Part shown: in pieces, positions 16,816 to 36,139 of the stretch
How positions within the stretch are numbered: the first letter of the stretch is position 1
Layout of the letters: every line of letters begins with the position of its first letter
Source: Actinomycetes bacterium
GTDB lineage: Bacteria; Actinomycetota; Acidimicrobiia; Acidimicrobiales; Palsa-688
Reading direction: 5' to 3'
NCBI GenBank assembly: GCA_021811865.1
Contig: JAKAQB010000020.1
Span: forward strand, 1-51,569
Length of the DNA stretch: 51,569 nt
Position numbers and translations under genes: made by a program
Notes under the pieces: generated by a model
What the model saw: the letters and a program-made list of their open reading frames with translations, nothing else
What the model was told of the DNA's origin: nothing
The model's database searches: none

Positions 16816-16985
16816 CGGCCCTGGCCCGGGCCGTCGGCTCGGATGCCAAGGACCTCATCTTGCTCGCCATTTACGCCGGCGGGGCGGCATTCGCCTGGCT
16901 CAGCCCGTGGATCCCAGCAACGGCCTCTACGCTCTGGTGTCGGTCTTCTGGTTCGTGCCCGACAGCCGGTTCACCGCCGGCTCAG
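16812..16985 (+). pseudogene. C-terminal fragment of a TMEM175-like (DUF1211) membrane protein
   Basis: In two plus-strand frames: DAKDLILLAIYAGGAAFAWL then SPWI, and after a shift NGLYALVSVFWFVPDSRF. This matches the end of bacterial TMEM175-type potassium channel proteins (pattern: small-residue helix, SPW, helix, WLVPDRRIE) as I remember them. No N-terminal part is present and the frame is broken. A relic only. Confidence 0.4.
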
Positions 16986-18880
16986 CCCAGATCGAGGGCC
17001 CGCACCGCCACGTCGGCCCGCATCCGGTCCCGGTGCTCGTCGAGGGACAGGCCGCTCAGCCGCTCGATCAACTCCAGGCGGTACTTGACGGTCTTCTGGT
17101 GCACCAGCAGCTTGGCCGCGGTGTCGCGCTGGTTGCAGTTGGAGTCGAGATAGGTGCGCAGCGTCTCCAGGAGGCTGGTGGCGTTCTGGCTGTCGTGCCT
17201 CATCACCGAGCCGAGCGTGGCCCGGGCGAAATCGGTGAGGGACCCGCCCTTGGGCCCGGCGATGAGCAGGCCGAGGATCCCGAGATCCTGGTAGAAGGCG
17301 ACCAGCCGGGTGGAGTCGAGGCCGAGCGCCTGGATGGCCACCATGGCCTCGTCGAACCCGGCGTCGAGATCGGTCGCCCCGACGTGGTCGGAGCTCACCC
17401 CCCACCGGGCGTTGAGGGCCGGCAGGTGGCGGCGCAACTCCTGGATCACGCCGCTCAGAAGCGCCTGGAGCTTCGCCGGGTCGGCAGACTGGACCAAGGC
17501 CACCACGTCCTCGCCGGTCACGGCCACGAGCTTGAGCAGGCCCGACTCGGCCAGGTCCGATTCGCACAGGGAGACCAGGCGGCGGCGTAGCTGATCCTCG
17601 TAGGCCTCGCTCCAGTCGGGGGGGCGGGACGAACCGGGGCCGGCCAGCCGGCACGCCGCCACCCGGAGCGGGCCGCGCAGGTCGACATGGAGGTACCTGG
17701 CCCGGGCGGCGGCGGCCCGGCGCTCCTCGGGGCTGCCCCGCAGCAGGTGCACCAGGATCTCCTCCCGCAGCGACGCCCGGGCCTGCAACGCCGCCTGCTC
17801 CTCCAGGTGCTTGAGGGCCACCGCCATGGCCGTCTGGCGGGCGGCCAGCTCCGCCTCGCTGCCGGCGGCCTGGGACCCGGCAGCATGGGAGCCGGCGGCC
17901 TGCGAACCGCCGGCTTGGAACCCGGCCAGGGCTACCCAGCCGATCTGCACCTGCGCCGTGCGGATCGGCATGAGCACCGCCGGCCCGGAGGCCAGGTCCC
18001 GCCACTCCGGCGCTCTCTCGGCCGTCCGCCCAGCGCTGGTCCGGCCGCCGATCGACGCCCTGACCCCGGCCGGATCCGTGCCGGCCGGCCATGACGCTAG
18101 GTGCTCCAACTCGGCGCCGAGGACGGTCACCGCCAGCCCGGTCCGCTCGCCCACCACCTGGCAGATCCCCTCCAGGGTGGTGCCGTCGAGGAGGGTCTCG
18201 ATCAGATCCTGCTGCAGCTCGAGGGCCCGCTCGACCCGGGCTAGCTGCGCCTCCATGGTGCGGTGGGCCTCCTCCACGGCCCGGGCGCTGGCCTCCGAGG
18301 CGGCGTGCAGCCGGGCGTTGTCCAAGGCGATGGCGGCCAGGTCGGCCAGGGCCACCAGGCGGTGGCTCTCGGCCGCGCTGAAGGTGGATCCGCGCCGCCG
18401 CCACACCTCCAACACCCCGATGATGGCCCCGTCCACGCTGAGCGGGGCGGCCAGGGCCGACCGGGTGCGCTCGAGCCGGGCCAGGTTGCGGAAGTCGTCG
18501 GAGATCACCGAGCTGCTGGAGTAGTCGTCCACCTTCTCGGCCCGGCCGGTGGCGAACACCAGGCCGGCCAGACCCTGGCCCCGGCGCATGCGCAGCTGGG
18601 CCGTCTCGGCCATCTGGTTGCCGGCGCAGCTGCGCATGAAGATCTCGTCGCCGTCGCGCAGCATCACCCCGGCGATGTCGGCGCCGAGCAGGCTCAGCGT
18701 CTCGTTGGTGACGGCGACAAGAGCCTCGTCGAGCTCCCGGGCCCGCAGGATCCGCCCAGCCACGCTGCGGAGCACGTCCACCTCGGCCAGGGCGTCGAGA
18801 GCGGCCGCTTCCAGGCGTCGCTCTCGCACCGACGGCCGCGACGCGGTGGCCGGCCGCGGTGGCGACCCGCCGGTGGCCAT
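16982..18880 (-). CDS. GAF-domain PucR-type regulator of the BMC locus
   Basis: 632 residues. ATG 18880 overlaps the alcohol dehydrogenase stop (TGATG); a GTG one codon earlier is equivalent. GAF domain at about residues 45-195 (LSLLGADIAGVMLRDGDEIF ... AAPLSVDGAIIGVLEVWR), then a coiled-coil-like linker (EAHRTMEAQLARVERALELQ), a CdaR-like middle part with a short AAGS(Q/H) repeat near residues 315-335 (AGGSQAAGSHAAGSQAAGSE), and a C-terminal HTH (TYLDSNCNQRDTAAKLLVH then KTVKYRLELIERL). It is the last gene of the minus BMC operon, so it should be autoregulated. It probably senses the compartment's substrate and acts at the GGATAA repeats in 24690-24893 (inference). Confidence 0.85.
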   Translation of the reverse strand: MATGGSPPRPATASRPSVRERRLEAAALDALAEVDVLRSVAGRILRARELDEALVAVTNETLSLLGADIAGVMLRDGDEIFMRSCAGNQMAETAQLRMRRGQGLAGLVFATGRAEKVDDYSSSSVISDDFRNLARLERTRSALAAPLSVDGAIIGVLEVWRRRGSTFSAAESHRLVALADLAAIALDNARLHAASEASARAVEEAHRTMEAQLARVERALELQQDLIETLLDGTTLEGICQVVGERTGLAVTVLGAELEHLASWPAGTDPAGVRASIGGRTSAGRTAERAPEWRDLASGPAVLMPIRTAQVQIGWVALAGFQAGGSQAAGSHAAGSQAAGSEAELAARQTAMAVALKHLEEQAALQARASLREEILVHLLRGSPEERRAAAARARYLHVDLRGPLRVAACRLAGPGSSRPPDWSEAYEDQLRRRLVSLCESDLAESGLLKLVAVTGEDVVALVQSADPAKLQALLSGVIQELRRHLPALNARWGVSSDHVGATDLDAGFDEAMVAIQALGLDSTRLVAFYQDLGILGLLIAGPKGGSLTDFARATLGSVMRHDSQNATSLLETLRTYLDSNCNQRDTAAKLLVHQKTVKYRLELIERLSGLSLDEHRDRMRADVAVRALDLG

Positions 18881-19932
18881 CACTTGGGACCGTTTGCGAG
18901 ATCGAGCACGACCTTCATTTCCCTGCTCTCCCGCATGTCACGGTAGCCCCCGGGGGCGGCGCCGAGCGGGGCGTGGCGGGTGATCACGAACCCGGGGTCG
19001 AGCACGCCGGTGGCGATCAGTGCGGCCAGGTCGTCGCGCACCGGTATCGGGTTGCCGATCACGAACCGCAGGCTCACCTCGGCGGCGAAGGCCCGGGCCA
19101 GCGGCAGCTCCCACGCCGGCTCGGTGTGGGCACTGACGCTGGCCACCGTCCCGCCCGGGCGGACCAGGTCCAAGGCGGCGTCGAGGCCGAAGGTCCGGCC
19201 CACCGCCTCGACCACGCCGTCACTGCCCCGGCCACCGGTCAGGTCGTCGATCGCGGCTCGGGCCGCGGCCGGCTCCACCGCGACGGCGCCGTGGGCGGCG
19301 GCGACGGCCCGGCGCTCCGGTATCGGATCGGAGAGGACGACCACGGCCGCCCCCCTCACCTGGGCCGCCAGGCTGGCCAGCTGCCCGACCGGCCCCCCGC
19401 CGAGCACCGCCACCACGTCGCCCGGAGCCACCCCGGCCCGCTCCGCCGCCACCCAGCCGGTGGCCAGGTTGTCCCCGGCCAGCAGGGCCGGGTCGGACCC
19501 CACGCCGGCCGGCCGGCGGGCCAGGGTCACGTCGGCGAAGGGCACCCGCACCAGCTCCGCCTGGCCCCCCGGCAGCGGAGGGCCGAACACCCGGCCGGTG
19601 CCGAAGAACCGGCGCTCGGGGCAGTGCCAGTGGGCGTGGCGCCGGCACCACCAGCAGCGCCCGCAGGCGGTGAAGTCGGAGGTCATGACCCCGTCGCCGA
19701 CCTTCAGGCCCCGCACCCCGGGCCCGGTCTCGACCACGGTCCCGGTGTACTCGTGGCCGAGCACCGTGCCGGGCTCCATCCCGGCGCGGTGCCCGGACGT
19801 CACGTGCAGGTCGGTCCCGCACACCGCTGCCGCCGACACCGCCACGATGGCGTCCTCGGTCGCCTCGATGCGCGGCTCGGGCACGTCGGCCACGGCGACC
19901 GAGCCCCCACCGGCGTAGACGACGGCCTTCAC
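18880..19932 (-). CDS. zinc-dependent medium-chain alcohol dehydrogenase
   Basis: 350 residues from GTG 19932, three bases after the preceding stop (a CTG overlapping that stop is a less likely start). MDR family: catalytic-zinc motifs CGTDLH and GHEYTGTV, a structural zinc set of four Cys in CGRCWWCRRHAHWHC, and the Rossmann motif VLGGGPVGQL. It converts an alcohol and aldehyde or ketone with NAD(P). In a BMC operon next to an acylating aldehyde dehydrogenase it most likely either reduces the aldehyde to regenerate NAD+ or feeds alcohol into the pathway. No obvious encapsulation peptide at either end, so it may work outside the shell. Confidence 0.87.
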   Translation of the reverse strand: MKAVVYAGGGSVAVADVPEPRIEATEDAIVAVSAAAVCGTDLHVTSGHRAGMEPGTVLGHEYTGTVVETGPGVRGLKVGDGVMTSDFTACGRCWWCRRHAHWHCPERRFFGTGRVFGPPLPGGQAELVRVPFADVTLARRPAGVGSDPALLAGDNLATGWVAAERAGVAPGDVVAVLGGGPVGQLASLAAQVRGAAVVVLSDPIPERRAVAAAHGAVAVEPAAARAAIDDLTGGRGSDGVVEAVGRTFGLDAALDLVRPGGTVASVSAHTEPAWELPLARAFAAEVSLRFVIGNPIPVRDDLAALIATGVLDPGFVITRHAPLGAAPGGYRDMRESREMKVVLDLANGPK

Positions 19933-19934
19933 GG

Positions 19935-21176
19935 TCAGCTCACTGCATGGATGCGCTCGCTCAGGCTCCGCGCCGCCCCGCGGAGCTGGTCCAGCTCGTC
20001 CGGTTCGAGCGGGAGGGTGACTATCTCGGAGAGTCCGCCTGGCCCCAGCCGGACGGGCAGGCCCACCCGGGTGTAGGTGAGCCCGTACTCGCCGCGAGGA
20101 GCGACGGCGCAGACCAGCAGGGAGGCCCTCCCGGTGACCATCTCGCAGACCATCTCGGCCGCCGCCCGGCCCGGCGCGAAGTAGGCGCTCCCGCTCTTCA
20201 GCAGGGAGACGATCTCGGCACCCGAGTCCCGGGCCCTCTCGGTGATGGCCGTGATCGTGGCGCTGTCGAGCACATCGCGCAGCGGCCGGCCCCGGACCGT
20301 CGCCAGGCTGATCGGTATGACCATTTCGGCCCCGTGGCTGCCGAGGGCGTAGGCCACCACCTCGTCGGGCCGTCCCACCCCCGTCAGGGCCACGAGGGCC
20401 GCGAAGCGGGCCGAGTCGAGCACGCCGGCCATGCCGAGCACCCGCTCCGGTGGGAACCCGGTCCTGATCTCGGTGAGGTGAGTCATCTCTTCGAGCGGGT
20501 TGGTGACGACCACCACCTCCGCATCCGGGGCCGACCGGCGGATCTGGTCGGCCACCGGCCCCACGATCTCGGCGTTGGCCTCGGTCAGGTCGGTGCGGGT
20601 CATGCCAGGCTTGCGGGCCCGGCCGGCGGTGACGACGACGTAGTCGCATCCGGCCAGGTCGGCGAGCGACGTGCTCCCCCGGACCTCACCCGCGAAGCCG
20701 GCCAGCGCGGCGCTGTGCCACAGGTCCAGGGCCACCCCGGCGGCCAGGCCCTCGACCACGTCTACCAGCGTGACCGACGAGAACAGGTCGGATGCTGCGA
20801 GGTGCAGGGCGGCCAGGGACCCGACGTGCCCGGCGCCGATCACGGCCGCCCGGGCGGTACCGCCCGGCGGGGAGGGGGACAACTCGTCCGGAACCGGGGC
20901 GCCGCGGCGGTACAGCCCGTTGACGGTGTCGGCCCGGCCGGCCGCCGGAGGCGGCGGGGGGCCCTGGGCTACCGCCGTCCTGCCCAGCGCCGCCGCCGGC
21001 CGGTGGTGGGACCGGCCCGGCCGGCTCTGCTGGTCATCCGGGCCGGGGGCGGCGTAGCGGACCTCCACCCCGAGCTCGCCGGCCCGGTCCCGGGCCAGCG
21101 GGGTGATCACATCCCCGGGTCCGACGATGACTGGCCCGGTGGCTTCCTCTATGTCGCGCGCGCCGATGATGGTCAT
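19935..21176 (-). CDS. malate/lactate dehydrogenase-family enzyme with BMC-type N-terminal extension
   Basis: 413 residues from the ATG overlapping the BMC-T stop (ATGA). Residues 1-42 (IVGPGDVITPLARDRAGELG) resemble a short module I have seen on several BMC-locus proteins; residues 43-105 are Pro/Ala-rich linker; from 109 on is a full LDH/MDH: AAVIGAGHVGS (NAD site), TLVDVVEG (Asp for NAD), RKPGMTRTDL (mobile loop), VVTNPLEEMTHL, GVLDSARF and the catalytic His in GSHGAEMVIP. The 2-hydroxyacid/2-ketoacid substrate is not defined: RKPGMTR is malate-type but NPLEE replaces the usual NPVD. The likely job is redox recycling of NADH from the aldehyde dehydrogenase, or oxidation of a pathway hydroxyacid. 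The extension may be an encapsulation signal. Confidence 0.83.
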   Translation of the reverse strand: MTIIGARDIEEATGPVIVGPGDVITPLARDRAGELGVEVRYAAPGPDDQQSRPGRSHHRPAAALGRTAVAQGPPPPPAAGRADTVNGLYRRGAPVPDELSPSPPGGTARAAVIGAGHVGSLAALHLAASDLFSSVTLVDVVEGLAAGVALDLWHSAALAGFAGEVRGSTSLADLAGCDYVVVTAGRARKPGMTRTDLTEANAEIVGPVADQIRRSAPDAEVVVVTNPLEEMTHLTEIRTGFPPERVLGMAGVLDSARFAALVALTGVGRPDEVVAYALGSHGAEMVIPISLATVRGRPLRDVLDSATITAITERARDSGAEIVSLLKSGSAYFAPGRAAAEMVCEMVTGRASLLVCAVAPRGEYGLTYTRVGLPVRLGPGGLSEIVTLPLEPDELDQLRGAARSLSERIHAVS

Positions 21177-21811
21177 GATGACGTGCCCTCCAACGCCTCG
21201 AGCGCCCCGACGGCGGCATCTCGGGCGCTCTGCACCTCGCTCTCGCTGCCCGACAGGAACACCCGCCCGAACCGGCCGACCGCCCGGACCTCGACGATGG
21301 TGATGTTGGCCGTCTTCTCGGCCTCGTTGGCGGCGAGGGTGGCATAGGCGGCCGGTGCCACCTCCAGGACGAACAGGCTGGTGCCGGGCATCAGCAGGCT
21401 GCCCTTGCGCCACTTGTTGATCAGCTGAGCCTGGTAGGGGCTCACGTTGGTGACGAACTGCGCCGACGCGACCTGGGGCCGGACCCGGTCGCCCTCCGAC
21501 AACCCCAGGTGGTCGAGGATGGCTTGGCCGGCGGCCAGAACCTCGGCCTGCTGGCCGGCGTGCACCTCGAGCAGTCCGAACTCCCGCTCGACGATCTGGA
21601 GGGCGGGCCGCACGTCGGCGGCCTTTAGCGCCACGTCCATCACCCGGAACACCTCGTTGCCCGGCGCCACCTCTACGAAGAGTTGCGACATGCCGGCCAC
21701 CGGGACGTCCCCCTGGCAGGTGGCGGCGACGTGGGCAGCCGACTGGGGCTGCATCCGGTCGATGAAGACGTAGGAGCGCAGCGAGAAGTTGGATGCAGTG
21801 GAGGGTGTCAT
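21173..21811 (-). CDS. BMC-T (tandem-domain) shell protein
   Basis: 212 residues, twice the size of a BMC-H protein. Two BMC-like halves are visible: LRSYVFIDRMQPQSAAHVAA to VEREFGLLEVHAGQQAEVLAAG, and VASAQFVTNVSPYQAQLINK to VGRFGRVFLSGSESEVQSA. It should form trimeric pseudohexamers in the shell facets; tandem proteins often carry larger, sometimes gated pores. The FIDxxQPQ beginning resembles BMC-T proteins of orphan metabolosomes rather than PduB or EutL. Start ATG overlaps the EutJ-like stop (ATGA) and its own stop overlaps the next start. Confidence 0.85.
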   Translation of the reverse strand: MTPSTASNFSLRSYVFIDRMQPQSAAHVAATCQGDVPVAGMSQLFVEVAPGNEVFRVMDVALKAADVRPALQIVEREFGLLEVHAGQQAEVLAAGQAILDHLGLSEGDRVRPQVASAQFVTNVSPYQAQLINKWRKGSLLMPGTSLFVLEVAPAAYATLAANEAEKTANITIVEVRAVGRFGRVFLSGSESEVQSARDAAVGALEALEGTSS

Positions 21812-22623
21812 GAGAGAGCTATCCCGAACGGGGTGACGAGCAGGGCGTGGGCGTACTCAGCGACCGGGTGACCGATGTAGCGGGCCACGATCGGCCCGGC
21901 ACCGGGGTACATCATCGTCCCGCCGATCAGGTGCACCGGGCCGCTGGGCGGTGGCCCCATCAGCCGGCGGATGTTGTCGGCGATGCGCTCTATGCCGGGG
22001 CCCAGGATGCTCAGGTCCTGGTTGCCGCCGGCCCGCTTGCGCTCTTCCGCCTCGGCCACATCCATGGACAGTGCTCCTGCCAGTATCAGGTTGAGCTGAG
22101 CGCCCCCGCCGGGCCGGTCCCCGAGCGACACCAGGGACCCGTCGCGGTAGACGCCCACACCGGTCGAACCGCCCCCCACGTCGGCGATGGCGCCGTCGCG
22201 CACGCCCAGCAGGGCCTGGGCGGCGGAGACCTCGTCCACCAACCGGCGGCAGTTCACCCCGGCGTTCTCCAGCACGTACCGGCAGGCCCGGCTCTCGGCC
22301 TCCCCCACGCCGGGGGGGTAGGCGGCGGCGGCATCTCGCACGCGGGCCCGCAGGAGCTCCTCGGCCCGGCCCACCAGCTCCCGGACGGCCGCCACCGCCC
22401 CGGCAAAGTCGACCACGACGCCGTCGCGGACCACCCCGGTCCGCAGCTCGTCGTAGTACGCCGGCTCGCCGCCGGAGGTGACCGCGGTCAGAGCGACGGT
22501 GGCGGTGCCGAGGTCCACACCGAAGCTCAGGTCGGCGTCCGGCTCGACCCGGGGATGGCGGTACGACGAGGCGGCATCATGCAAGTAGCGCTCGACCGCC
22601 ATAGGTGTCACTAGTAGTGTCAC
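21808..22623 (-). CDS. eutJ: EutJ-like actin-fold ATPase/chaperone
   Basis: 271 residues. ASKHA-fold motifs: GVDLGTATVALTAV (phosphate 1), IADVGGGSTGVGVY (phosphate 2) and HLIGGTMMYPG (adenosine). This is the pattern and length of EutJ (about 278 residues), the BMC-associated Hsp70-like protein whose exact role is unproven but is thought to be chaperone or reactivation of compartment enzymes. I used the GTG overlapping the aldehyde dehydrogenase stop (GTGA); an ATG 21 bases later (MAVERYLHD) is possible. Its presence without ethanolamine ammonia-lyase or any B12 enzyme is odd. Confidence 0.82.
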   Translation of the reverse strand: MTLLVTPMAVERYLHDAASSYRHPRVEPDADLSFGVDLGTATVALTAVTSGGEPAYYDELRTGVVRDGVVVDFAGAVAAVRELVGRAEELLRARVRDAAAAYPPGVGEAESRACRYVLENAGVNCRRLVDEVSAAQALLGVRDGAIADVGGGSTGVGVYRDGSLVSLGDRPGGGAQLNLILAGALSMDVAEAEERKRAGGNQDLSILGPGIERIADNIRRLMGPPPSGPVHLIGGTMMYPGAGPIVARYIGHPVAEYAHALLVTPFGIALS

Positions 22624-24026
22624 GAGCCCAGCATCTCGTAAAGGGACCTCCAGGGCCGCACCTCGTAGGCGACCCGCTTGATGTTGATCAGGTGGAGCGG
22701 GCTCACGTTGTCGGAGACCATGGAGCCGCTCCAGGTTCCGGTGCCGAGCATGAACGAGGGGCCGATGGAGGTGCTGTAACCCATCCCGCCGAACAGGCTC
22801 GGCGTGTTGACCGGGATGCGGGACGCCGGGAGCCGCCCGAACGACGCGATGACCGACTCGTCGGTGGCGTGCAGCCCGAGGGTGTGGCCGGCCCCGCCGA
22901 AGGCCAGCACTTCGGCACAGCGCTCGATGGCGCCGTCCACCGTGTCGGCCCGGTAGAACGACAGGACGGGCCCGAGGATCTCGGCGGAAAGGGGAGAGGG
23001 GCGGCCCACCTCGGTCAGCACGGCACCGAGCACCCGGGTCGACCCGGGGACGGCCACGCCGATCCGTCGGGCCAGTTCGACCGCCGGCTGGCCCACGTGG
23101 TCGGGGTCGAGGCCGCCGCTGTCGGTGAAGAGCAGGCGGGTCAGCTTCTCCTGCTGCGGGTCATCCAGGAAGAACACGCCGCGGGCGCTGAACGCCTCGA
23201 CGGCCTGGTCGAAGATCCCCCCGTCGATCACCACCGTCTGCTCGGCCACGCAGGCCGTACCGTTGTCGAACGACTTGGACGTGACCACCATCTCCGCCGC
23301 CTCGGCCACGTCGGGCACGCTGCGGTGAACGTACACCGGCACGTTGCCGGCGCCCACCGCCAAGGTGGGCTTGCCGCTGCTGTAGGCGGCCTTCACCATC
23401 CCGGCGCCGCCGGTGGCCAGGACCAGCGCCACGTCGGGGTGGCGCATCAACTCGGTCGTGGCCGGGATGCTGGCCCGCTCCAGGCAGGCGATCACCCCGG
23501 GCGGGGCGCCGGCGCCGACGGCGGCTTCCGCCATCACCTCCGCGGTGCGGGCGCAGGCTCGGGCGGCCCGCGGGTGCGGGGCGTGCACCACGGTGTTGCC
23601 TGCCTTCAGCGCGGCCAGGCACTTGAAGATCACGGTGGAGGTGGGATTGGTGACGGGGATGATGGCGGCGATCACGCCCATCGGGCTGCCGATGGCTGTC
23701 ATGCGTCCGGGCTTGTCCACCCACAGCACGCCCTTGGCCCTCATGCCGGCCATGGAGCGGGCCACGAACCCGGCGTTGTACCGGTTCTTCAGGATCTTGT
23801 CCTCGTAGACGCCGTAGCCGGTCTCGTCCACGGCCATGCGGGCCAGCTCCGGCGAAGCGTCCCATGCCGCCGCCGCCATGGCGGCGACCACGCGGTCGAG
23901 GTCCTCCTGGGTGGCGTCCTCGAAGGCGTCGAGTGCCTGGCGGGCCTGGCGGGCCTTGTGCCGGGCCTCGGCCAGGCCGGCCAGGTCGTCGTCGAGGGGT
24001 GCGGCGGTGTCGAACGTGGCGGCCAT
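22620..24026 (-). CDS. CoA-acylating aldehyde dehydrogenase (EutE/PduP/SauS-like), BMC core enzyme
   Basis: 468 residues of the aldehyde dehydrogenase fold. It has the short acylating-type layout: IIPVTNPTSTVIFK for the NAD site, LATGGAGMVKAAY, the catalytic Cys in DNGTACVAEQ, and the C-terminal HLINIKRVAYE typical of EutE/PduP relatives. It oxidises an aldehyde with NAD+ and CoA to an acyl-CoA, the central reaction of metabolosomes. The N-terminus (about 25 residues before the first helix) is too short for a PduP-style encapsulation peptide. Neighbours upstream are two shell genes. Aldehyde identity is not readable; resemblance to sulfoacetaldehyde dehydrogenases means a sulfonated or other substituted aldehyde cannot be excluded. 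Confidence 0.88.
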   Translation of the reverse strand: MAATFDTAAPLDDDLAGLAEARHKARQARQALDAFEDATQEDLDRVVAAMAAAAWDASPELARMAVDETGYGVYEDKILKNRYNAGFVARSMAGMRAKGVLWVDKPGRMTAIGSPMGVIAAIIPVTNPTSTVIFKCLAALKAGNTVVHAPHPRAARACARTAEVMAEAAVGAGAPPGVIACLERASIPATTELMRHPDVALVLATGGAGMVKAAYSSGKPTLAVGAGNVPVYVHRSVPDVAEAAEMVVTSKSFDNGTACVAEQTVVIDGGIFDQAVEAFSARGVFFLDDPQQEKLTRLLFTDSGGLDPDHVGQPAVELARRIGVAVPGSTRVLGAVLTEVGRPSPLSAEILGPVLSFYRADTVDGAIERCAEVLAFGGAGHTLGLHATDESVIASFGRLPASRIPVNTPSLFGGMGYSTSIGPSFMLGTGTWSGSMVSDNVSPLHLINIKRVAYEVRPWRSLYEMLGS

Positions 24027-24041
24027 CTACTGCCGGGATCC

Positions 24042-24365
24042 CTACTTGGGAGCAGGAGCGGGGGCCGCCGCCGAAGGCTTCATCAAGATGGCTTCCACTT
24101 CGTCGTGGGGGCGGGGGATCACGTGCACGGAGACCACCTCGCCGATCTTGTTGGCGGCGACGGCGCCTGCATCGGTCGCTGCTTTGACTGCCCCGACGTC
24201 GCCTCGGACCATGACGGTCACCAGGCCGCCGCCGATCTGCTCTCGCCCGAGCAGCACGACGTTGGCTGCCTTGACCATGGCATCGGCGGCCTCTATGGCT
24301 CCGACGAGACCCTTGGTCTCGATAAGGCCCAGGGCGCTCTGTGGTACCGGGTTGCCCGTCGGCAT
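24042..24365 (-). CDS. BMC-H shell protein (PduA/EutM-like), copy 1
   Basis: 107 residues, one BMC domain: [20 protein letters not shown], then the pore loop in [19 protein letters not shown] and [15 protein letters not shown]. It makes the hexameric tiles of the shell facets; GGG at the pore suggests a small polar-metabolite channel. An Ala/Pro-rich C-terminal tail follows. AAGGAGAGAGG precedes the ATG at 24365. It is close in sequence to the second BMC-H at the far end of the locus, implying duplication or shared use in one shell. Confidence 0.93.
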
Positions 24366-24386
24366 CGTGTCCTCTCTCCTTGTGCG

Positions 24387-24689
24387 TCAGCTCTTGCGGA
24401 AGACCGTCTGGGTGCGGATGGTGACGGAGTCGACGATGCCCACGACGGCGGCGTCGGTGGGAACCGAGACCGAGTCTCCCTCGACGCGCGCCGCGCTGCC
24501 CCTCGCCACCAGGACCACCTCTCCCAGGCCGGCTCCGATGTAGTCGGCGGCCACGTAGGCGGCCCCGTCCGGGCCGTCCCTGGTGGCATCGTGCATATCG
24601 ACCGGCACCACCATGAGGAGGGTGCGACCGTGGAGGCCGGGTTGCTTCACGGTGGCCACGACCTGCCCCACGACCCGCCCGATCTCCAT
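24387..24689 (-). CDS. BMC-P vertex protein (EutN/CcmL family)
   Basis: 100 residues: MEIGRVVGQVVATVKQPGLH, then LLMVVPVD, YVAADYIGAGLGEVVLVARG and a C-terminal VGIVDSVTI, the EutN/CcmL pattern. These pentamers close the twelve vertices of a microcompartment shell. First gene of the minus operon, with a strong GGGGGAGGTGA ribosome site, 21 bases before the BMC-H gene. Confidence 0.93.
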   Translation of the reverse strand: MEIGRVVGQVVATVKQPGLHGRTLLMVVPVDMHDATRDGPDGAAYVAADYIGAGLGEVVLVARGSAARVEGDSVSVPTDAAVVGIVDSVTIRTQTVFRKS

Positions 24690-24893
24690 CGTCACCTCCC
24701 CCGAGTGGTTCCTGGTTGCCGGGTCACCCCTAACCATAAGGGAGGTCGGGGATAGCGGCTTTATCCCTCGCGGATAAGAAGCACGGGATAAATGTCCGCA
24801 CGGGGACATGGAGCCCGGTTGCCCGACTTGCGAGACTGGCGGCGGACGGGTGGCCAGGGAGATCATCCGACCGTGCAACCCTGGGGGATATGC
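24690..24893. promoter_or_regulatory. divergent control region of the BMC locus with GGATAA repeats
   Basis: 204 bases between the two BMC operons. TTATCC (24761-24766), CTCGC, GGATAA (24772-24777) form a palindrome, and a second direct GGATAA lies at 24786-24791, 14 bases further; a related GGATAG is near 24750. Such spacing suggests an operator for a dimeric regulator, the best candidate being the PucR-type protein at the end of the minus operon. Both operons could be switched together from here. Confidence 0.6.
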
Positions 24894-25883
24894 ATGATTA
24901 CGGACGCGGATGCCGAGTTCCACCCACCGGCCGGGGGTGATCCGAGCTGGGCCGAGACCAACTATTTCGGCTTCTACTCGGCCGAGGCGCCGCTCAACGT
25001 GGGCGTGTACGCCTTGTTCCGGCCAAACCTGGGGGTGGTGCACTCGACGGTCTGCATGAACTCCGGCGACGCCCCCATGCCCTGGAGGGCCGACTTCTGC
25101 GACATGCGGTCGCACCTGCCGATCCCCGAGCCCCGTTCGCTGCGCACCTACGCCTTGGCCAACGGGCTGAGTGTTGCCACGGTGAAGCCCAACGACACCT
25201 GGCACATCGGCTATGACGACGACGCCGGCACCTCCATCGACGTCACCTACCAGGCGCTGATGCCGGCGTTCGACATCCACGACCCGGACATGGATCCGAT
25301 CACGGCCGCCCAGAGCCGGGAGCGCTTCGCCTGGGGGACGGCGTACAACGGGCACTTCGACCAGACCGGCCACGTGCAGGGGAGGGTGACCGTGCGGGGC
25401 CGCGAGGTCCCGATCGACTGCGTGAGCACCATGGACCACAGCTGGGGTCCCCGGTTCGAGCGAGGCAGCCCCAACATGAGCTGGCTACATGCCCACTTCT
25501 CCGACCAGTTGGCGGTGCACGGCATCTTCTCCTTCGACGAGGCCGATGGGGGCGGGGCACTGGCGTTGATGCACGGTTACGTGATCAGGGACGGAAAGTG
25601 CATCGGCCTGGCGTCGGGCCGCGGGGTGACCGGTCGCGACGCCGACTTCTACGCCCGCCGGCTGGAGATCCGGGTCGAGGACGCCCACGGCGACAGCTAC
25701 GACCTGCGGGGCGAGGGGTTCACCCGGTTTCCGTGGCAGGCCTGGCCGAACGTGGTCGGCTTCAATGTCCTGGCCCGCTGGGACTGCGCCGGGCGGACCG
25801 GCTACGGCGAAGTGCAGGACTTCGTCGACCTGACCCGGCTGTGCGAGGGCCGGGCCATGCCCACCAACGCGGCAGCCGGCTGA
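24894..25883 (+). CDS. DUF7064/DUF7065-like (lipocalin/CrtC-fold) protein
   Basis: 329 residues, first gene of the plus BMC operon. No clear catalytic motif, but CVSTMDHSWGPRFERG contains the DHSWGxR signature that I associate with the DUF7064/7065 group of AttH/CrtC-type beta-barrel proteins, some of which act on or bind hydrophobic substrates such as steroids and carotenoids. No signal peptide, so cytosolic. Start ATG 24894 follows GGGGGATATGC; upstream in-frame sequence is inside the control region. Its place in the operon suggests substrate binding, hydration or isomerisation upstream of the compartment; function unknown. Confidence 0.7.
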   Translation: MITDADAEFHPPAGGDPSWAETNYFGFYSAEAPLNVGVYALFRPNLGVVHSTVCMNSGDAPMPWRADFCDMRSHLPIPEPRSLRTYALANGLSVATVKPNDTWHIGYDDDAGTSIDVTYQALMPAFDIHDPDMDPITAAQSRERFAWGTAYNGHFDQTGHVQGRVTVRGREVPIDCVSTMDHSWGPRFERGSPNMSWLHAHFSDQLAVHGIFSFDEADGGGALALMHGYVIRDGKCIGLASGRGVTGRDADFYARRLEIRVEDAHGDSYDLRGEGFTRFPWQAWPNVVGFNVLARWDCAGRTGYGEVQDFVDLTRLCEGRAMPTNAAAG

Positions 25884-25888
25884 TCCGG

Positions 25889-26866
25889 ATGGCCACCCGT
25901 CTTGTCGTGTTCGACATGGACGGCACGCTGGTCCAGACCCGCGCCGCGTCGTGGGAGGTGTTCCAGGCCACCGCCAGCCGGTTCCACCTCCCGGTCCGCA
26001 GCGCGGAAGAGTTCTTCGAGCTCTTCCGCGACAACTTCTACGCCAGCCTGGCCAAGCTGTGCAGCACGCCCGAGCAGGAGGCCGAGGTGCGGGATCACTT
26101 CCTCGAGGGGTTGCGGGAGCGGTACGTGCCCGGCTTCATCCCGGGGATGCTCGACGTGGTCAAGGCGCTGGCGGAGCGCTACCCGCTCGCCGTCCTGTCA
26201 TCTAACGCCATGGCCGCCATCCGGCGGATCCTCGAGGGCGAGGGGGTGGCCGAGTGCTTCGCCCACGTGTTCTCGGGTGAGGTCGGGGCCAGCAAGGAGG
26301 CGGCCCTGCTCCGGCTGCTATCCGAGCCGTCCTACAGCCGCGCCCGGCATTGCTCCCCGACCTACGCAGAGGGCAACGGCAACGACGACTTCGAGGTGGT
26401 GCTGGTGACCGACACCGTGGGCGACGTCCGGGAGGCGGCCCGGGTCGGCGTCCGCGTGATCGGAGTGGCCTGGGGCATGCACAGCCGGGAAGCCCTGCTC
26501 GCAGCCGGGGCGGAGACCGTCGCCCTCTGGCCCCAGGAACTGGTTGCCATCCTGGCGGACCGGCCCGGCTCCGACGGCGCCGCCTGCGCCTGCACCGGCG
26601 CGAGCGGGACCTGCGCCTGCTCCTGCTCGGTGGTCGCGACCGTCGGTCGGGGTACGGGTCCCCCCACCGAGCCCTCGGCCGGGGCGGCAGCCGAGGCCGG
26701 GCGGATACGCAGGGAGCGGCGCCACCGGGCCGCTCCCGCGCTCGCCGCCGCCCCGGCTGTCGGTGCCCCCCGCCGTCGTCCTGGACCGGACCGGGCCCTG
26801 GTCGGTGCCCTCCGCCGCATCTCGAACCCGAAGACCACCGCCCCCACCGGCTCCCGCCGGACCTGA
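25889..26866 (+). CDS. HAD-family phosphatase with Cys-rich linker and C-terminal tail
   Basis: 325 residues. Residues 1-225 are a HAD hydrolase of the phosphoglycolate phosphatase-like type: VVFDMDGTLVQ (nucleophile Asp9), LSSNA (motif II), SKEAALLRLL (motif III Lys) and VTDTVGDVREA (motif IV). Residues 231-247 hold five Cys (CACTGASGTCACSC), then a low-complexity Ala/Arg/Pro tail with a short amphipathic stretch at about 300-312 (DRALVGALRRISN) that looks like a C-terminal encapsulation peptide. It would dephosphorylate a small phosphorylated metabolite, possibly inside the shell, which fits a pathway that also has a dikinase-like enzyme. Only 5 bases separate it from the gene before. Confidence 0.8.
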   Translation: MATRLVVFDMDGTLVQTRAASWEVFQATASRFHLPVRSAEEFFELFRDNFYASLAKLCSTPEQEAEVRDHFLEGLRERYVPGFIPGMLDVVKALAERYPLAVLSSNAMAAIRRILEGEGVAECFAHVFSGEVGASKEAALLRLLSEPSYSRARHCSPTYAEGNGNDDFEVVLVTDTVGDVREAARVGVRVIGVAWGMHSREALLAAGAETVALWPQELVAILADRPGSDGAACACTGASGTCACSCSVVATVGRGTGPPTEPSAGAAAEAGRIRRERRHRAAPALAAAPAVGAPRRRPGPDRALVGALRRISNPKTTAPTGSRRT

Positions 26867-26886
26867 GAGAGAACAAGGAGCAGAGA

Positions 26887-27303
26887 TTGTCCAACGTAAT
26901 AGCCGAGGGCTACAACGCTTTCGAGACCGAGAAGACGCCGTCGGGCACGGTGAAGTACCTTCCCGACCCGCCGTCGGTCATGGCCCTGATCCGCAGCGGG
27001 AAGCTGGGAGAGCACATCCTGCTGGTACGCGGTGGGACCACCACCTTCCTGGCCCCGGCGCTCTCAATGGGAGCGATCGGGATCATCACCATGTCCGGGG
27101 CCCCCGAATCGCACCTCGGGATCCTGTCCCGGGAGTTCCAGACGCCCTGCGTGATGACGACCGGGCTCCTGGCCAGCGAGTCCCGCTACGTCCCGGGCGA
27201 GACCGGCGACGCCCACTTCAACGAGATCGTCCAAGCGCTCGAGGGGGTCAAAGTGCAGCTCGACTGCTCCGATCCCCAGACGGGCCGGGTCATCGCTCTC
27301 TGA
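26887..27303 (+). CDS. standalone phosphohistidine swivel-domain protein
   Basis: 138 residues from a TTG start, chosen because AAGGAG sits 6 bases before it and the frame gives a complete domain. It matches the mobile domain of PEP synthase and PPDK alone: VRGGTTTFLAPALSMGAIG, then GAPESHLGILSREFQTPCV with the acceptor His76 in place of the canonical TSHAAVVAR histidine. In PPDK-type enzymes this domain carries the phosphoryl group between an ATP-grasp site and a substrate site. As a free protein it resembles the separate subunits of phenylphosphate synthase-like systems. Likely partners are the dikinase-like protein at 29378 and the unassigned protein that follows. Confidence 0.82.
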   Translation: MSNVIAEGYNAFETEKTPSGTVKYLPDPPSVMALIRSGKLGEHILLVRGGTTTFLAPALSMGAIGIITMSGAPESHLGILSREFQTPCVMTTGLLASESRYVPGETGDAHFNEIVQALEGVKVQLDCSDPQTGRVIAL

Positions 27304-27340
27304 TCGGCCGAGTCCCCACACAGAAAAAGGAGTCCAACCA

Positions 27341-28762
27341 ATGAGTGTTAGCGCGCCCGGCGCTGAATACCTGAAGCGATACGAGGACGGCGACGAGGGC
27401 GTCCGGTTCCAGTCGCTCGTCTATACGGGGAACTTCACCGACCTCGAGCCGGTACCCGACGGGATTCTGGGGGACCGCCTCATGCGCCGGCGCATGAAGA
27501 CGAAGGTCATGGAGCGGGTGTCCGAGGAGGACGTGCTGCGCGACCAGTTCACCCTGGATGAGCTGAACGACCTCAACAACTACCTGGCCTGGAACATCTG
27601 GGACGTGCTCGTCATGAGGGCGACGGAGGGCGTCTCGGGAATGATCCCCCGCCAGGAGTACGAGATCCTGTCGTTCATGCAGGAGTTCTACCGCTACCCC
27701 GAGTTCATGCGGATGATGACCGACCAGGTCGGGGCCCAAGGCGTCATGGACATCGGCAAGAGCGCCCGCTCACAGATCGGCACGAAGATCAACTGCGTAC
27801 ACGACTGGTGCCTGGGCGCAGTCGCGTTCGGCATGGGCCGGTGCGGGCTGCTGGCCCTCGAGGTGATCGAGGCCAACGACTACGTCGAGGAGTCCAACAT
27901 CATCCTCAAGTTCATGCAGCGCGTGCTCTGGGGCAAGCGCCAGGACGGCTACATCCTCAACTCTCAAGACCGCTACCGCTGCACCATCCACGAGCAGTCG
28001 GTGATCGACCAGGTGATGAGCCAGGTGGTCGAGTTCGAGGAGGGTTCGCCCGACCACGACGCCTTCACCAAGTTCAACGCCACCGCTGAGCTGCTGGCCT
28101 TCTTCGACCACTACGACTGCCGCCTCGGTCTGGGCGACACCGGGCCCTACATCCTTCCCGACGGGCGGATCCTGATCATCCGGGACCTCTTCGTCAACGA
28201 GGAGGTGTACCACTGGTCCGACGTGTGCGCCGACCTGCCGCACTGCTACACCCTGGCAGTGGTGCTCGACCCGGCGAAGATGGGACTTCAGGAGATCCGG
28301 GTCAACGACATCTCCACCACGTTCACGGCGCCAAAGAACTACATCCCGGCCATCACCGCGGGGGCCATCTTCGTGCGGGAGAAGTGGGACACGCCCATGG
28401 ACCACGTCTACGAGCTCCCCCTGAAGGACACCGAGCCGCACCTGGAGAAGATCCGGGAGGCCACCGTCAAGATGTACGACAAGACCCTGCGGATGTCCAA
28501 GCGCATCCTCTGCACCAACGGGATCTACAGCTACTACATCGACATGATCCTCCCATACCTGCGGGCCACCGGTGTCTACGACGAGGTGTGCGCCAAGTAT
28601 GACTTCTGGGAGATCGACCAGCGCGTGTCCAACTACTACTACGAGATCACCAAGCGGAACTTCGTCCAGGTCACGGTCCCCCAGAAGATCTTCTCCGGCT
28701 CCGGCTACCTGCCCTTCCCCGAGGGCACCGACCTGCGTCGCTCTAAGTACAGCCTCCTCTGA
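27341..28762 (+). CDS. unassigned 473-residue protein of the BMC operon
   Basis: I do not recognise a family. ATG 27341 follows AAAAAGGAG. Soluble, no signal peptide or membrane helix; acidic and aromatic-rich with many Tyr/Trp/Met. Conspicuous Cys/His/Asp groups: NCVHDWCLGAVAFGMGRCG (about 150-168), DRYRCTIHEQSV, FFDHYDCRLGLGDTGPYILP, YHWSDVCADLPHCYT and RILCTNGIYSYYIDM. These could form a metal or substrate site. It lies between the swivel-domain gene and a helical-protein gene, ahead of the dikinase-like gene, so it may be the substrate-binding component replacing a PEP/pyruvate barrel. It is the best candidate for the signature enzyme of the compartment (inference). Confidence 0.85.
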   Translation: MSVSAPGAEYLKRYEDGDEGVRFQSLVYTGNFTDLEPVPDGILGDRLMRRRMKTKVMERVSEEDVLRDQFTLDELNDLNNYLAWNIWDVLVMRATEGVSGMIPRQEYEILSFMQEFYRYPEFMRMMTDQVGAQGVMDIGKSARSQIGTKINCVHDWCLGAVAFGMGRCGLLALEVIEANDYVEESNIILKFMQRVLWGKRQDGYILNSQDRYRCTIHEQSVIDQVMSQVVEFEEGSPDHDAFTKFNATAELLAFFDHYDCRLGLGDTGPYILPDGRILIIRDLFVNEEVYHWSDVCADLPHCYTLAVVLDPAKMGLQEIRVNDISTTFTAPKNYIPAITAGAIFVREKWDTPMDHVYELPLKDTEPHLEKIREATVKMYDKTLRMSKRILCTNGIYSYYIDMILPYLRATGVYDEVCAKYDFWEIDQRVSNYYYEITKRNFVQVTVPQKIFSGSGYLPFPEGTDLRRSKYSLL

Positions 28763-28793
28763 CCGCCCGAGCGACCGCCGAGGGAAGGATCCG

Positions 28794-29381
28794 ATGACCG
28801 AGGAGGAGTTCCTCGCACTGAACAGCGTCTACCTGAAGAAGATCGCCACCGGCCGGGCGGTCGCCCAGGCCACGGGCCTTCCGGAGGCGGTGGTCGGAGA
28901 GGTGCTGGCCGGGGCCGAATCGGAATCCGCCGGCGCTGTGGTCGACGTCGGCGGCGGGATGCTCATGCTCTCCGAGGACGGCGTGCGTGCCGTCCTCGGA
29001 GGGTACGAGGCCCGCTACGCCGACTGCCGGGTCGACCCGGCGGTGGAGGACTGGTACCAGCGCTTCGAGACGCTCAACAAGCAGTTCCTCGAAGGGGTCA
29101 CCGCCTGGCAGCAGGATGTCGGCGACATGGCCAAGATGGATCGCCTGCTCAAGCTGGTCGAGCGTCAGATCCGGGCGCTGGCGTCGATCAGCGAGCGGAT
29201 CCCCCGCTACGAGGCCTACGCCGGACGATTCTCCCACGCCATCGATCAGGTGGACACCGGCGCCACGAACTACCTGGTCAGCCCGGATGTCGACTCCATC
29301 CACAACATCTGGTTCGAGTTCCACGAGGACATCCTCACCGTGCTCGGGCGGCCCCGCGACGTGGCGGAGTCCGCCGGGTGA
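28794..29381 (+). CDS. unassigned helical 195-residue protein of the BMC operon
   Basis: Not recognised. ATG 28794 follows GGGAAGGA. Mostly alpha-helical: an N-terminal segment with NSVYLKKIATGRAVAQATGL looking like a small winged or UBA-like helix bundle, GAVVDVGGGMLMLSEDGVRA, then a long amphipathic region (WYQRFETLNKQFLEGVTAWQ, MAKMDRLLKLVERQIRAL) suited to a coiled coil or an adaptor. It overlaps the dikinase-like gene by GTGA, so the two are probably made in equal amounts and may form a complex. Confidence 0.8.
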   Translation: MTEEEFLALNSVYLKKIATGRAVAQATGLPEAVVGEVLAGAESESAGAVVDVGGGMLMLSEDGVRAVLGGYEARYADCRVDPAVEDWYQRFETLNKQFLEGVTAWQQDVGDMAKMDRLLKLVERQIRALASISERIPRYEAYAGRFSHAIDQVDTGATNYLVSPDVDSIHNIWFEFHEDILTVLGRPRDVAESAG

Positions 29382-31849
29382 GCGCCATGGCCGGGGGTGG
29401 TCCCGAACTGGTCCACGACGTGGACGGCATCGACCCGCTCGACACCGCCCGCTTCGGGGGCAAGGCCGCTGGCCTGGCCCGCATGCGCCGGCTGGGCCTG
29501 CGGGTCCCACCCGCCTTCGTGGTGGAGACGGCGGCGTGCCGATTCTACCGGGAGAACGGCCAGCGTATCCCCTCCGGCATCGTCTCGGAATGCCATGTCC
29601 AGATGTCCCGGCTCGAGAGCCAGACCGGCAAGGTGTTCGGCCGCGACGACGGCGTGCCTCTCCTGGTATCGGTGCGGTCGGGGGCCCAGATCAGCATGCC
29701 CGGGATGATGGACACCGTCCTCAACCTGGGGCTGGACCGCCGGTCGGTGCTGTCCCTGGCCGAGGCGTGCGCCGATCCGGTGTTCGCCCTCGACACGTGG
29801 ATCCGCTTCTGGTCGATGTTCTCGGACATAGTCCTCGACGTGGACTCGGCCCTGCTGCAGGATCAGATCGCCGAGGCTCGCCGGGCGGCGGCCGGGGCCC
29901 TCGACGCCGCCAGCGCGGCCCGGCTCGAGGAGCGGATCGTCGCCGTCCTCGACGCCGAATCGGGACCGGTGCCGCTCGACCCGCGCGATCAGCTCGAGGC
30001 GGCCGCCCGGGCGGTCCTGGACTCGTGGGACTCGCGGCGGGCCCGGCTTTACCGCGAGCATCACGGCATATCGCACGACCTGGGCACGGCCATAACCGTG
30101 CAGGCCATGGTGTTCGGGAACCTGGGCCGGCCAGCCGGAAGCGGCGTGGCGTTCACCCGGGACCCGTCCACCGGCGCCGCCCGCCTCTACGGCGAGTACC
30201 TGCCGGGCGGCCAGGGGGAGGAGGTCGTAGCCGGCACCAAGACCCCGGTCAAGCTGGAGGAGGCCGGGCTGGGTTTGGCGCCCATCGCGGCCGAGCTGGA
30301 GGCCTACGGGCGCCGGCTGGAGGAGGAGTACCGCGACGCCCTGGACATCGAGTTCACGGTGGAGTCGGGCGTGCTGTACCTGCTGCAGGTCCGCCCGGCC
30401 AAGCGGTCGGCGGCGGCCGCGGTCCACATCGCCACCGCGATGGTGGGTGAGGGACTGATAGAGCCAGCCGAGGCGGTACGGAGGGTCTCGGCCGAGCAGG
30501 TCAAGCGGCTGCTCTCGCCGGAATTCGATCCGGACGCGGTCGCCACGGCCCGGGCCGGGGGCCGCCTGCTGGCCAGGGGAGTGCCGGCCTCGCCCGGCCA
30601 CTCCAGCGGGCGGGTCGCGCTCGACGCCGACCGGGCCATCGAGCAGGCTGCCGGCGGCGCCTGCGTGATCCTGCTCCGCCCGACCACCAGCCCGCAGGAC
30701 CTGAGGGGGATGCTGGCCGCCGCCGCCGTGGTCACGGCCCGGGGCGGGGCCACCAGCCACGCCGCGGTGGTGTCGCGGGCCCTCGACAAACCGTGTGTGG
30801 TGGGCTGCGAGGACATCGAGGTGCGTCCCGACGAGCGGGCCTTCTTCGTCGACGGGCGGCGGGTCGGCGAGGGGGAGGTGGTGTCGGTGGACGGGGCCTC
30901 CGGCGAGATCCTGCTGGGCGAGCTGCCCCGGCGGGTGCCGACCCGCAACGTGGACCGCCTCAGCCAGATCCTGGGTTGGGCCGACGCGCTGTCGCAGGTG
31001 TCGCTCTGGACCGAGGCCACGTCGCCGCCCCTTCCGGTGGACCTGGCCCGGCGGACCAGCTCGGCCGGGCTCGGCATCGTGCCCCTGACCGACCTGTTCC
31101 AAGCGGCGGGGCAGTTGCCGGTACTGCTCGACGCCATCGCCCGCTACGACGCCGACCCCGACGCGGACGGGTCGGTCATCGAGGAGCCGCTGGCATCGGC
31201 GACCGCGGCGGCGCTGGGACCCTTGCTGGCGGCCGCCCCCGACCTCCCCGTCGATGTCCGCCTGCCCAACCTGACCTCGGTCCGGGCCCGGGCGTGGGTG
31301 GAGAAGTGGACCACCCTGTCCCCGCACCTGCTCATGCCGCTGGGAGCCACCCGGCTGATCGATGCCTACGTCCGGGGGGTGCGAGCGGCCGCCACGCAGG
31401 CCAGCCACCAGCGGCTGACCATCCTGGCGGCCGGCATCACCTCGGCGGAGGAGCTGTCCGAGTTCGCCGGGCTGGTGGGACCGGACCTGGCGGCCGGCGC
31501 CGTCCTCCAGAACCCGGCCGTGGTCGCCGACGCGCCGGCGCTGGCGGCGACCGGCCTGCCGCTTTGGATCGACCTGGCCGAGCTGGTGCGCACCACGCTG
31601 GGGCGGCCAGAGGAGCTGCTCTACACCGACAACTCGTTCCGGCTGCCTCCCCTGCTGCTCAGCCTCTTGGCGAGGCTGGTGGGGGAGGGCCCCCGCGCCC
31701 GGGTGGGGGTGAGGCTCACCGGCAACTCCATCGCTTCTTCGTCGGTCCTGCACGATCTCGGCTTTCGGGTGTTCAGCAGCTCGGCCGCCCAGGCCGGGGA
31801 GCTCCGCCTGCTACTCGGCCAACACGTGCTCGAGGAGGAATCGCCATGA
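29378..31849 (+). CDS. pyruvate phosphate dikinase-like protein with degenerate PEP/pyruvate barrel
   Basis: 823 residues, GTG start overlapping the previous stop. Residues 1-350 are a PPDK-type ATP-grasp domain ([77 protein letters not shown]); the swivel domain follows with [20 protein letters not shown], acceptor His461. Residues 510-823 align in layout with the C-terminal TIM barrel but key residues are gone: the CRTEHMF-like segment is VPLTDLF, and the catalytic CGE motif is VGVRLTGN with Arg779. It is therefore unlikely to interconvert PEP and pyruvate; it should still phosphorylate its His from ATP and pass the group elsewhere. Followed by BMC-H with ATGA overlap. Confidence 0.85.
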
Positions 31850-32139
31850 CCGATCTCGGTGGCCGGGCCCTGGGCCTGGTGGAGACGATGGGGCTGGTCG
31901 CGGCCACGGAGGCGGCCGACGCCATGGTCAAGTCGGCCAACGTCCGGCTGGTCAGCAAGCAGCAAGTGGGTGGGGGGCTCATCACCATCCTGGTCGCCGG
32001 GGACGTGGGTGCGGTCCAGGCAGCGGTCGACGCCGGCCGGGCGGCGGCGTCGGCGGTGGGGCGGGTCGTGTCGGCCCATGTGATTCCCCGACCCCATGAC
32101 GAGATCCCCGACATCCTGGAGCGTCCCCCCGTCCGTTGA
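31846..32139 (+). CDS. BMC-H shell protein, copy 2
   Basis: 97 residues, single BMC domain: [20 protein letters not shown], pore loop [20 protein letters not shown] and [20 protein letters not shown]. Very like the first BMC-H but without the Ala/Pro tail. GAGGAGGAA precedes an ATG that overlaps the dikinase-like stop. It ends the plus operon, so shell genes bracket both ends of the cargo genes. Confidence 0.93.
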
Positions 32140-33428: not shown

Positions 33429-33429
33429 G

Positions 33430-33755: not shown

Positions 33756-33827
33756 TAAAAGCGACCCGGCTGTGCCATGTGCCGCGAGAGCCCCCCTTGG
33801 GGCCGACACGAGGGGCGCCCCCATAGA

Positions 33828-33844: not shown

Positions 33845-33863
33845 GGCCACACGGGCCAGGCGG

Positions 33864-36136: not shown

Positions 36137-36139
36137 GCT

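Follow-up and report, generated by a model that had tools for sequence, protein, structure and literature searches.

A bacterial microcompartment locus that fits the orphan class MIC1 and its predicted phosphate-dependent module

Among the described classes of bacterial microcompartment (BMC), MIC1 is an orphan class that was published without an assigned function (Axen et al. 2014). Here we analyze a BMC locus from an Actinomycetes bacterium of the order Acidimicrobiales (GenBank assembly GCA_021811865.1, contig JAKAQB010000020.1); the window, i.e., the whole stretch of DNA that was analyzed, comprises 51,569 nucleotides. Gene calls and Pfam searches define a 15-gene locus at positions 16982-32139 in which all shell tile types are present. 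Its gene content, which rather than the published shell-protein hidden Markov models or representative locus is the basis of the assignment, fits MIC1 in every feature tested. Since MIC1 has already been published, without function, the locus does not appear to be a new class. The original prediction, which was made from the DNA letters and proposed a distinct class with undescribed aldehyde-forming chemistry, perhaps a catalogued orphan, is supported in this form.

The nearest characterized counterparts of the kinase discussed below are two-component dikinases of phenol-type catabolism, whose swivel His takes phosphate from the ATP-grasp part and delivers it to the acceptor part (PMC12167813). 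Phosphate chemistry on tertiary alcohols is known from 25-phosphosteroid lyase, which expels phosphate from a tertiary-alcohol phosphate. In Methylibium PM1, mdpJ (Mpe_B0555) encodes a tert-butyl alcohol hydroxylase (PMC4517660), and breakdown of 2-methyl-3-buten-2-ol may begin by isomerization to prenol, the enzyme being described in 2016 as uncharacterized (PMC4791888).

In this study, the conserved plus-strand module of the locus is read as a split dikinase, a tertiary-phosphoester enzyme and a lumenal phosphatase, a reading that is new here. The overall picture, to which we give about an even chance, is a MIC1-type metabolosome whose aldehyde would come from a small tertiary alcohol through a phosphate-dependent route. 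We infer the chemistry, and the substrate is its least certain part.

The conserved six-gene module

The minus-strand shell and dehydrogenase genes of the locus diverge from a plus-strand operon that encodes, in order, a DUF7064 protein, a HAD phosphatase, a free swivel domain, proteins of 473 and 195 amino acids (aa), a dikinase and a BMC-H protein. Genome contigs were scanned with the 473-aa protein, which yielded 18 related loci, including records of Nocardioides, Acidimicrobiia, Eremiobacterota, Bradyrhizobium, Pseudonocardia and Paraburkholderia/Caballeronia. The gene set is found again in unrelated phyla, at median identities of 40-86%, and hence is no chance arrangement. The swivel and 473-aa genes occur in 18/18 loci, the 195-aa, dikinase and HAD genes in 17 and the DUF7064 gene in 16; the loci in which HAD or DUF7064 was not seen (L003, L004) are cut by contig ends, and in L010 the 195-aa homologue was read in two pieces. 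Gene order is mostly kept, with rearrangements in L014, L011 and Rhodococcus oxybenzonivorans; in L011 the 195-aa and dikinase genes lie at its far end, immediately ahead of the regulator gene and some 10-13 kb from the 473-aa gene. The distribution is patchy: 473-type genes were found in 8 of 394, 2 of 399 and 2 of 397 sampled genomes, mostly as distant relatives.

Shell genes accompany the module in 14 of the 18 loci; L004 is cut by a contig end, and L008-L010 have no shell genes at the locus. A whole-genome search of 13 genomes, with five of the 18 loci left out, found the BMC domain in 10 and not in the other three (two Paraburkholderia and one Caballeronia). In the shell-less loci the same six genes are followed by genes for an alcohol dehydrogenase, an aldehyde dehydrogenase and an AMP-forming acyl-CoA ligase (identified by Pfam in L008 and by tblastn in L009 and L010), and R. 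oxybenzonivorans has both tail-end versions side by side. The plus-operon proteins do form a conserved set that accompanies shell genes, the check proposed earlier for a distinct class, and the set is also found in three genomes without a BMC-domain gene. For this reason we regard these proteins as a pathway module and not as shell accessories, and we infer that the pathway ends in an alcohol or aldehyde that is oxidized to acyl-CoA, with or without a shell. Additional phosphatase genes were seen near the module in L014 (14712-15455, tyrosine type), L020 (6416-7603, histidine type) and, by eye only, L002 (14804-15430, histidine type).

The largest product of the module is the PPDK-like dikinase of 823 aa (29378..31849, plus strand; PPDK_N 2e-41), with ATP-grasp and swivel domains and a diverged C-terminal third. 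Homology to PPDK spans the ATP-grasp and swivel parts; most PDB matches end at residue 578-580 and one at 629. As the homology stops at about 580-590 of 823 residues in most matches, a pyruvate site is unrecognizable at the sequence level. The swivel His is kept in 18/18 aligned sequences, and so are Arg, Glu, Gln and Arg columns that we take, by PPDK, to be ATP-site residues. The free swivel domain (26887..27303, plus strand; PEP-utilizers 8e-08) carries the motif GAPESHLGIL, with its His in 19/19 sequences.

The 473-aa protein (27341..28762, plus strand) is 70-93% identical across all 18 loci and has no match in Pfam, NCBIfam or PDB sequences. Its AF2 model (pLDDT 83.8, pTM 0.88) gave no confident PDB fold match, and an RPH-like acceptor domain was found neither by sequence nor by a confident fold match. 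The gene adjoins or is fused with the swivel gene almost everywhere, with some exceptions. In Rhodococcus opacus B4 the swivel, the 473-aa protein and, after them, the 195-aa protein (28794..29381, plus strand; no Pfam match) form one chain, and open frames of 795-850 aa in genomes G066, G364 and G098 suggest further such fusions. Residues invariant among six 473-type sequences, down to 22-26% identity, include R93, R167, R194, R200, R261 and R281, as would be expected of a predicted phosphate site. Taken together, we conclude with fair firmness that the swivel, 473-aa, 195-aa and dikinase proteins constitute a single split phosphohistidine-relay dikinase, in which the 473-aa protein would be the acceptor-binding subunit. 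The dikinase-like protein and free swivel noted earlier are indeed present, and the two proteins then left unassigned are best read as dikinase parts.

Distant 473-aa paralogues occur in carboxylase clusters of Pseudonocardia and Rhodococcus. Three such clusters (L019, L025 and L027) contain three swivel plus 473-like units (by annotation in L025 and L027) and paralogues of the 195-aa protein and the dikinase, together with biotin carboxylase, carboxyltransferase, ligase, OB-fold protein and thiolase genes and, in L025 and L027, a tyrosine-type phosphatase gene; they likely specify an ATP-dependent carboxylation pathway for ketones or hydroxyketones. On a plasmid of R. opacus B4 (L023, 4407-16677), the fused swivel-473-195 gene lies near genes for a 570-aa dikinase, a P450 and ferredoxin, an FAD oxidoreductase, aldehyde and alcohol dehydrogenases, an acetate-CoA ligase family protein and a tyrosine-type phosphatase.

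The first gene of the operon (24894..25883, plus strand) encodes a DUF7064/7065 protein whose fold matches the 25-phosphosteroid lyase/AttH group, with no sequence-level match between it and the lyase. By analogy, we predict a tertiary-phosphoester lyase or isomerase.

The second gene encodes a HAD phosphatase (25889..26866, plus strand; HAD_2 4e-13) with a C-terminal extension of about 100 aa. The protein ends at 231-232 aa in 3/3 shell-less genomes, and the tail is present in 13/13 shell-bearing loci that hold the gene, as well as in L004, the window, Methylibium PM1 and R. oxybenzonivorans; tailed proteins continue for 89-146 residues after a common WPxEL motif, as opposed to 13-14 in the shell-less genomes. 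An Arg-rich motif is common to ten representative tails (score 247 versus 182±8 in shuffles, 0/200), as is, when the Arg-rich part is removed, a terminal 11-mer motif like DxxLLxALRR (165 versus 135±8, 0/300), located 3-15 residues from the end in nine of the ten. When individual tails were examined for amphipathicity the signal was weak, 3/17 falling under 5% against their own shuffles. Encapsulation peptides are short terminal motifs behind a flexible linker, and the HAD terminal motif, which in the window reads PDRALVGALRR within the last 34 codons (26762..26863, plus strand; common-motif search of the tails), looks like one. This sequence-based comparison makes the phosphatase a predicted lumen cargo. 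In the window and several shell-bearing loci the extension is also cysteine-rich (CACTGASGTCACSCS), and metal binding or disulfides are possible.

Proposed pathway and alternatives

In the proposed pathway, the ATP-grasp part would phosphorylate the swivel His at the cost of ATP, with release of AMP and Pi; from the swivel the phosphate would pass to a substrate held by the 473-aa subunit. This substrate would be a small tertiary alcohol, from whose phosphoester the DUF7064 protein would expel or move the phosphate, as in 25-phosphosteroid lyase. Since tertiary phosphoesters match ATP in energy, which makes a plain kinase reversible, an AMP-forming dikinase makes sense. The HAD phosphatase in the lumen would release the rearranged primary alcohol, which alcohol dehydrogenase and CoA-acylating aldehyde dehydrogenase (AldDH) would convert to aldehyde and then acyl-CoA while the shell retains the aldehyde. 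The tertiary-alcohol substrate and the DUF7064 phosphate step, taken jointly with lumenal dephosphorylation and oxidation, may or may not be right in about equal measure.

An independent hint of tertiary-alcohol catabolism comes from gene neighborhoods. A 599-kb plasmid of Methylibium PM1 carries the same locus (AldDH 67%, BMC-T 73% identity), and its mdpJ, matched to a Rieske gene by place and product in a record that carries no such name, lies 45 kb from the shell locus; a dikinase of the present family (40%) lies 3 kb from mdpJ. Between a second copy of the module and the 2-hydroxyisobutyryl-CoA mutase genes, which this copy precedes by 3.4 kb, are two regulator genes. The copy (L046, 8094-15131) is divergent, with a fragmentary HAD gene and remains of BMC-P and BMC-H genes nearby. 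In an Eremiobacterota genome, a 62% MdpJ homologue follows BMC-H2 at a distance of 1 kb from the locus, with one GntR gene between; homologues of two genes of the PM1 mdpJ neighborhood are found near the dikinase, and an 80% HcmA is encoded on another contig.

As a substrate, 2-methyl-3-buten-2-ol fits: its breakdown in PM1 may begin with the isomerization to prenol by an uncharacterized enzyme (PMC4791888), and the alcohol and aldehyde dehydrogenases that follow the module in shell-less loci, together with the ligase, would suit a sequence from prenol through prenal and the acid to the CoA ester. MdpJ is reported to turn tert-amyl alcohol into methylbutenol (PMC4791888 and the title of a 2012 report by Schuster). 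The specific route would run from 2-methyl-3-buten-2-ol through prenyl phosphate, prenol and prenal to 3-methylcrotonyl-CoA and leucine breakdown. A BMC for hemiterpene tertiary alcohols, in which 2-methyl-3-buten-2-ol is phosphorylated and its allylic phosphate transposed on the way to prenol, prenal and 3-methylcrotonyl-CoA, is put forward as a tentative and rather doubtful version of the scheme. Two observations weigh against the tertiary-alcohol picture. The 473-aa gene in the PM1 shell locus (L045, 20448-20762) is a decayed remnant, and MdpJ and HcmA orthologues are missing in 13 of the 14 genomes with a 473-aa protein of more than 70% identity; the substrate must therefore usually arrive without them. 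Our literature searches, judged mostly from their listings, brought up no paper tying MIC1 to this chemistry.

An alternative acceptor for the dikinase would be an aromatic hydroxyl, phenolic or otherwise, as with HpeHI, CreHI and PpsAB; the phosphate would then be a temporary tag that the HAD phosphatase removes, and the aldehyde would arise from the side chain. The known split dikinases of catabolism do act on phenols (PMC12167813). The 473-aa paralogues of Pseudonocardia and Rhodococcus, through their association with biotin carboxylase, carboxyltransferase, CoA ligase and thiolase, resemble the Hpe route, and the Rhodococcus clusters also hold the tyrosine-type phosphatase. No ring-processing or carboxylating gene is present among the locus proteins, however, the AldDH belongs with the short-chain acylating enzymes, and DUF7064 shares the fold of a tertiary-phosphoester lyase, so we consider an aromatic substrate unlikely.

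For a tert-butanol branch, in which AldDH would make the CoA ester from 2-hydroxyisobutyraldehyde for the mutase or for an acetone-forming lyase, the prospects are poorer still. It would draw on the PM1 module copy just ahead of the mutase genes, on the 80% HcmA of the Eremiobacterota genome and on two partial HcmA-like pieces (59% and 68%) in G066, a genome with a 38% 473-like protein. In the window, the acetone would then be carboxylated by acetone carboxylase, whose genes directly adjoin the locus, and an actinobacterium is known to degrade 2-hydroxyisobutyrate through acetone (PMC7176365). Yet among 16 genomes full-length HcmA above 51% and MdpJ above 45% were each found in one, the same genome, and acetone carboxylase alpha (40-41%) was found in only 2/16 related genomes, both shell-less. 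This branch also leaves the dikinase, DUF7064 and HAD proteins without a clear role.

It is improbable, too, that phosphate serves as a trap, with a volatile aldehyde or primary alcohol phosphorylated outside, entering through the pores and being freed by the lumenal HAD phosphatase. That the HAD tail tracks shell presence, and that a dikinase suits scavenging at low concentration (PMC12167813), would agree with such a trap, but it makes no sense in the three shell-less genomes that keep the whole module, and it gives DUF7064 no role.

Shell, core enzymes and flanks of the locus

The shell genes comprise two BMC-H (24042..24365, minus strand, Pfam BMC 1e-28; 31846..32139, plus strand, 3e-27), one BMC-T of the CcmP type (21173..21811, minus strand; BMC 3e-09, best PDB match CcmP 4ht5, 1e-62) and one BMC-P vertex protein (24387..24689, minus strand; EutN_CcmL 3e-26). 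The CoA-acylating AldDH (22620..24026, minus strand) has acetylating acetaldehyde dehydrogenase 5j78 as its best PDB match (1e-116) and scores 477 bits against TIGR02518, under the cut-off of 620. Two further dehydrogenases are encoded on the minus strand: a zinc alcohol dehydrogenase (18880..19932; ADH_N 9e-23, ADH_zinc_N 1e-15) and a lactate/malate-type dehydrogenase (19935..21176; Ldh_1_N 9e-34) with an N-terminal extension of about 95 aa. The latter had been called as a 315-aa open reading frame (ORF; start 20882), but its frame continues upstream without a stop to an ATG at 21176, giving 413 aa; its counterpart is a single 416-aa ORF in L018, one annotated coding sequence in PM1 and two in R. 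oxybenzonivorans. The EutJ-like protein (21808..22623, minus strand) scores 257 bits against NCBIfam EutJ (cut-off 182) and matches MreB_Mbl at 3e-06, exactly at the cut-off. A PucR/GAF transcriptional regulator (16982..18883, minus strand; HTH_30 1e-18, GAF 2e-14) has homologues in 12 of the 18 loci. The earlier assignment of these parts, i.e., three tile types, AldDH, two dehydrogenases, a EutJ-like protein and a regulator, is confirmed by gene calls, Pfam and NCBIfam.

The claim that the locus lacks a classic signature enzyme also stood: Pfam scans of 16 locus pieces revealed no domain of PTAC, diol dehydratase, EutBC, glycyl radical enzyme, aldolase or RuBisCO. The locus thus has neither EutBC, the mark of the EUT class, nor diol dehydratase, the mark of the PDU class. 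Diol dehydratase, EutB and PTAC were the enzymes covered by a further search of the whole genomes of ten shell-bearing relatives. PTAC was found in 0/10 (control positive in 2/14), diol dehydratase in 1/10 (control positive in 0/14) and EutB in 5/10 (control positive in 1/14), the EutB-positive genomes being the five Bradyrhizobium only; neither EutB nor diol dehydratase was detected in the other five, some of which are incomplete metagenome bins. With no PTAC at the locus or in 10/10 relatives, the metabolosome core is incomplete. The concern that a signature enzyme might sit just outside the window is answered for EutB and diol dehydratase, which in these ten genomes were never on the locus contig. 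The EutB and diol dehydratase genes of some relatives might speak for an ordinary metabolosome that has its classic enzyme at another site in the genome, but such a system is very improbable given their placement on other contigs, the restriction of EutB to Bradyrhizobium, the five genomes with neither (glycyl radical enzymes, aldolases and RuBisCO not having been sought genome-wide) and a dikinase module as the conserved neighbor of the shell genes.

The left flank (window 5660-16461) encodes a permease of the APC type, another PucR/GAF regulator (25% identity to the one in the locus), the beta, alpha and gamma subunits of acetone carboxylase, and an AMP-forming ligase. The right flank (window 32600-51569) looks like a mobile, decayed stretch, with a transposase-like remnant that has no Pfam match and small AbrB/RelE-like and PIN-like genes, all judged by eye, together with an FAD-binding flavoprotein frame.

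Comparison with known systems

If the hemiterpene version of the scheme is true, it would give MIC1 its first function, provide the first case of a tertiary alcohol feeding a BMC, supply the missing link between 2-methyl-3-buten-2-ol and prenol, and add a four-subunit dikinase of a new kind. MIC1, published in 2014 without an assigned function, gains a concrete testable pathway and a likely cargo. The data also point to a kinase family with a split phosphate relay; its acceptor subunit has no counterpart among the described families of the libraries searched. They further offer candidate genes for a step in the breakdown of 2-methyl-3-buten-2-ol, which is volatile and a metabolite of fuel additives; the 2016 paper called this step uncharacterized (PMC4791888).

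With MIC1 the locus shares AldDH, lactate/malate-type and zinc alcohol dehydrogenases, an MreB-like protein, one CcmP-type BMC-T (here by best PDB match) and the lack of PTAC and a signature enzyme; MIC1 also lists a hydrolase and a phosphatase, and the single HAD protein could be either. A dikinase, swivel, DUF7064 protein or 473-aa protein is not mentioned in the available MIC1 text, nor is a pathway put forward there. The RMM BMCs of Rhodococcus and Mycobacterium are likewise actinobacterial, have a phosphotransferase gene, lack CoA-recycling core enzymes and contain a BMC-T of the same wider family, but their proposed substrate is an amino alcohol, they have an aminotransferase, and the accessible description names no dikinase. 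The PVM BMC has a lactate/malate-type core dehydrogenase, as here, and differs by a class II aldolase, which has no counterpart at the locus. PVM also contains PTAC, whereas the locus does not.

HpeHI, CreHI, PpsAB and the one-chain rifampin phosphotransferase resemble the predicted split dikinase in having an ATP-grasp part, a phosphohistidine swivel and a separate acceptor part. The locus differs from them in its PPDK-like ATP-grasp part, its free swivel encoded by a gene of its own, its extra 195-aa subunit and an acceptor protein without a Pfam or NCBIfam match or a confident PDB fold match. The Sterolibacterium tandem of 25-hydroxysteroid kinase and 25-phosphosteroid lyase acts on a steroid and has no shell, and its kinase is ADP-forming, belongs to another family and uses tert-butanol at <0.1% of the steroid rate. 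Its logic is nevertheless the one predicted for our locus, in which a tertiary alcohol would be phosphorylated and the phosphate then expelled.

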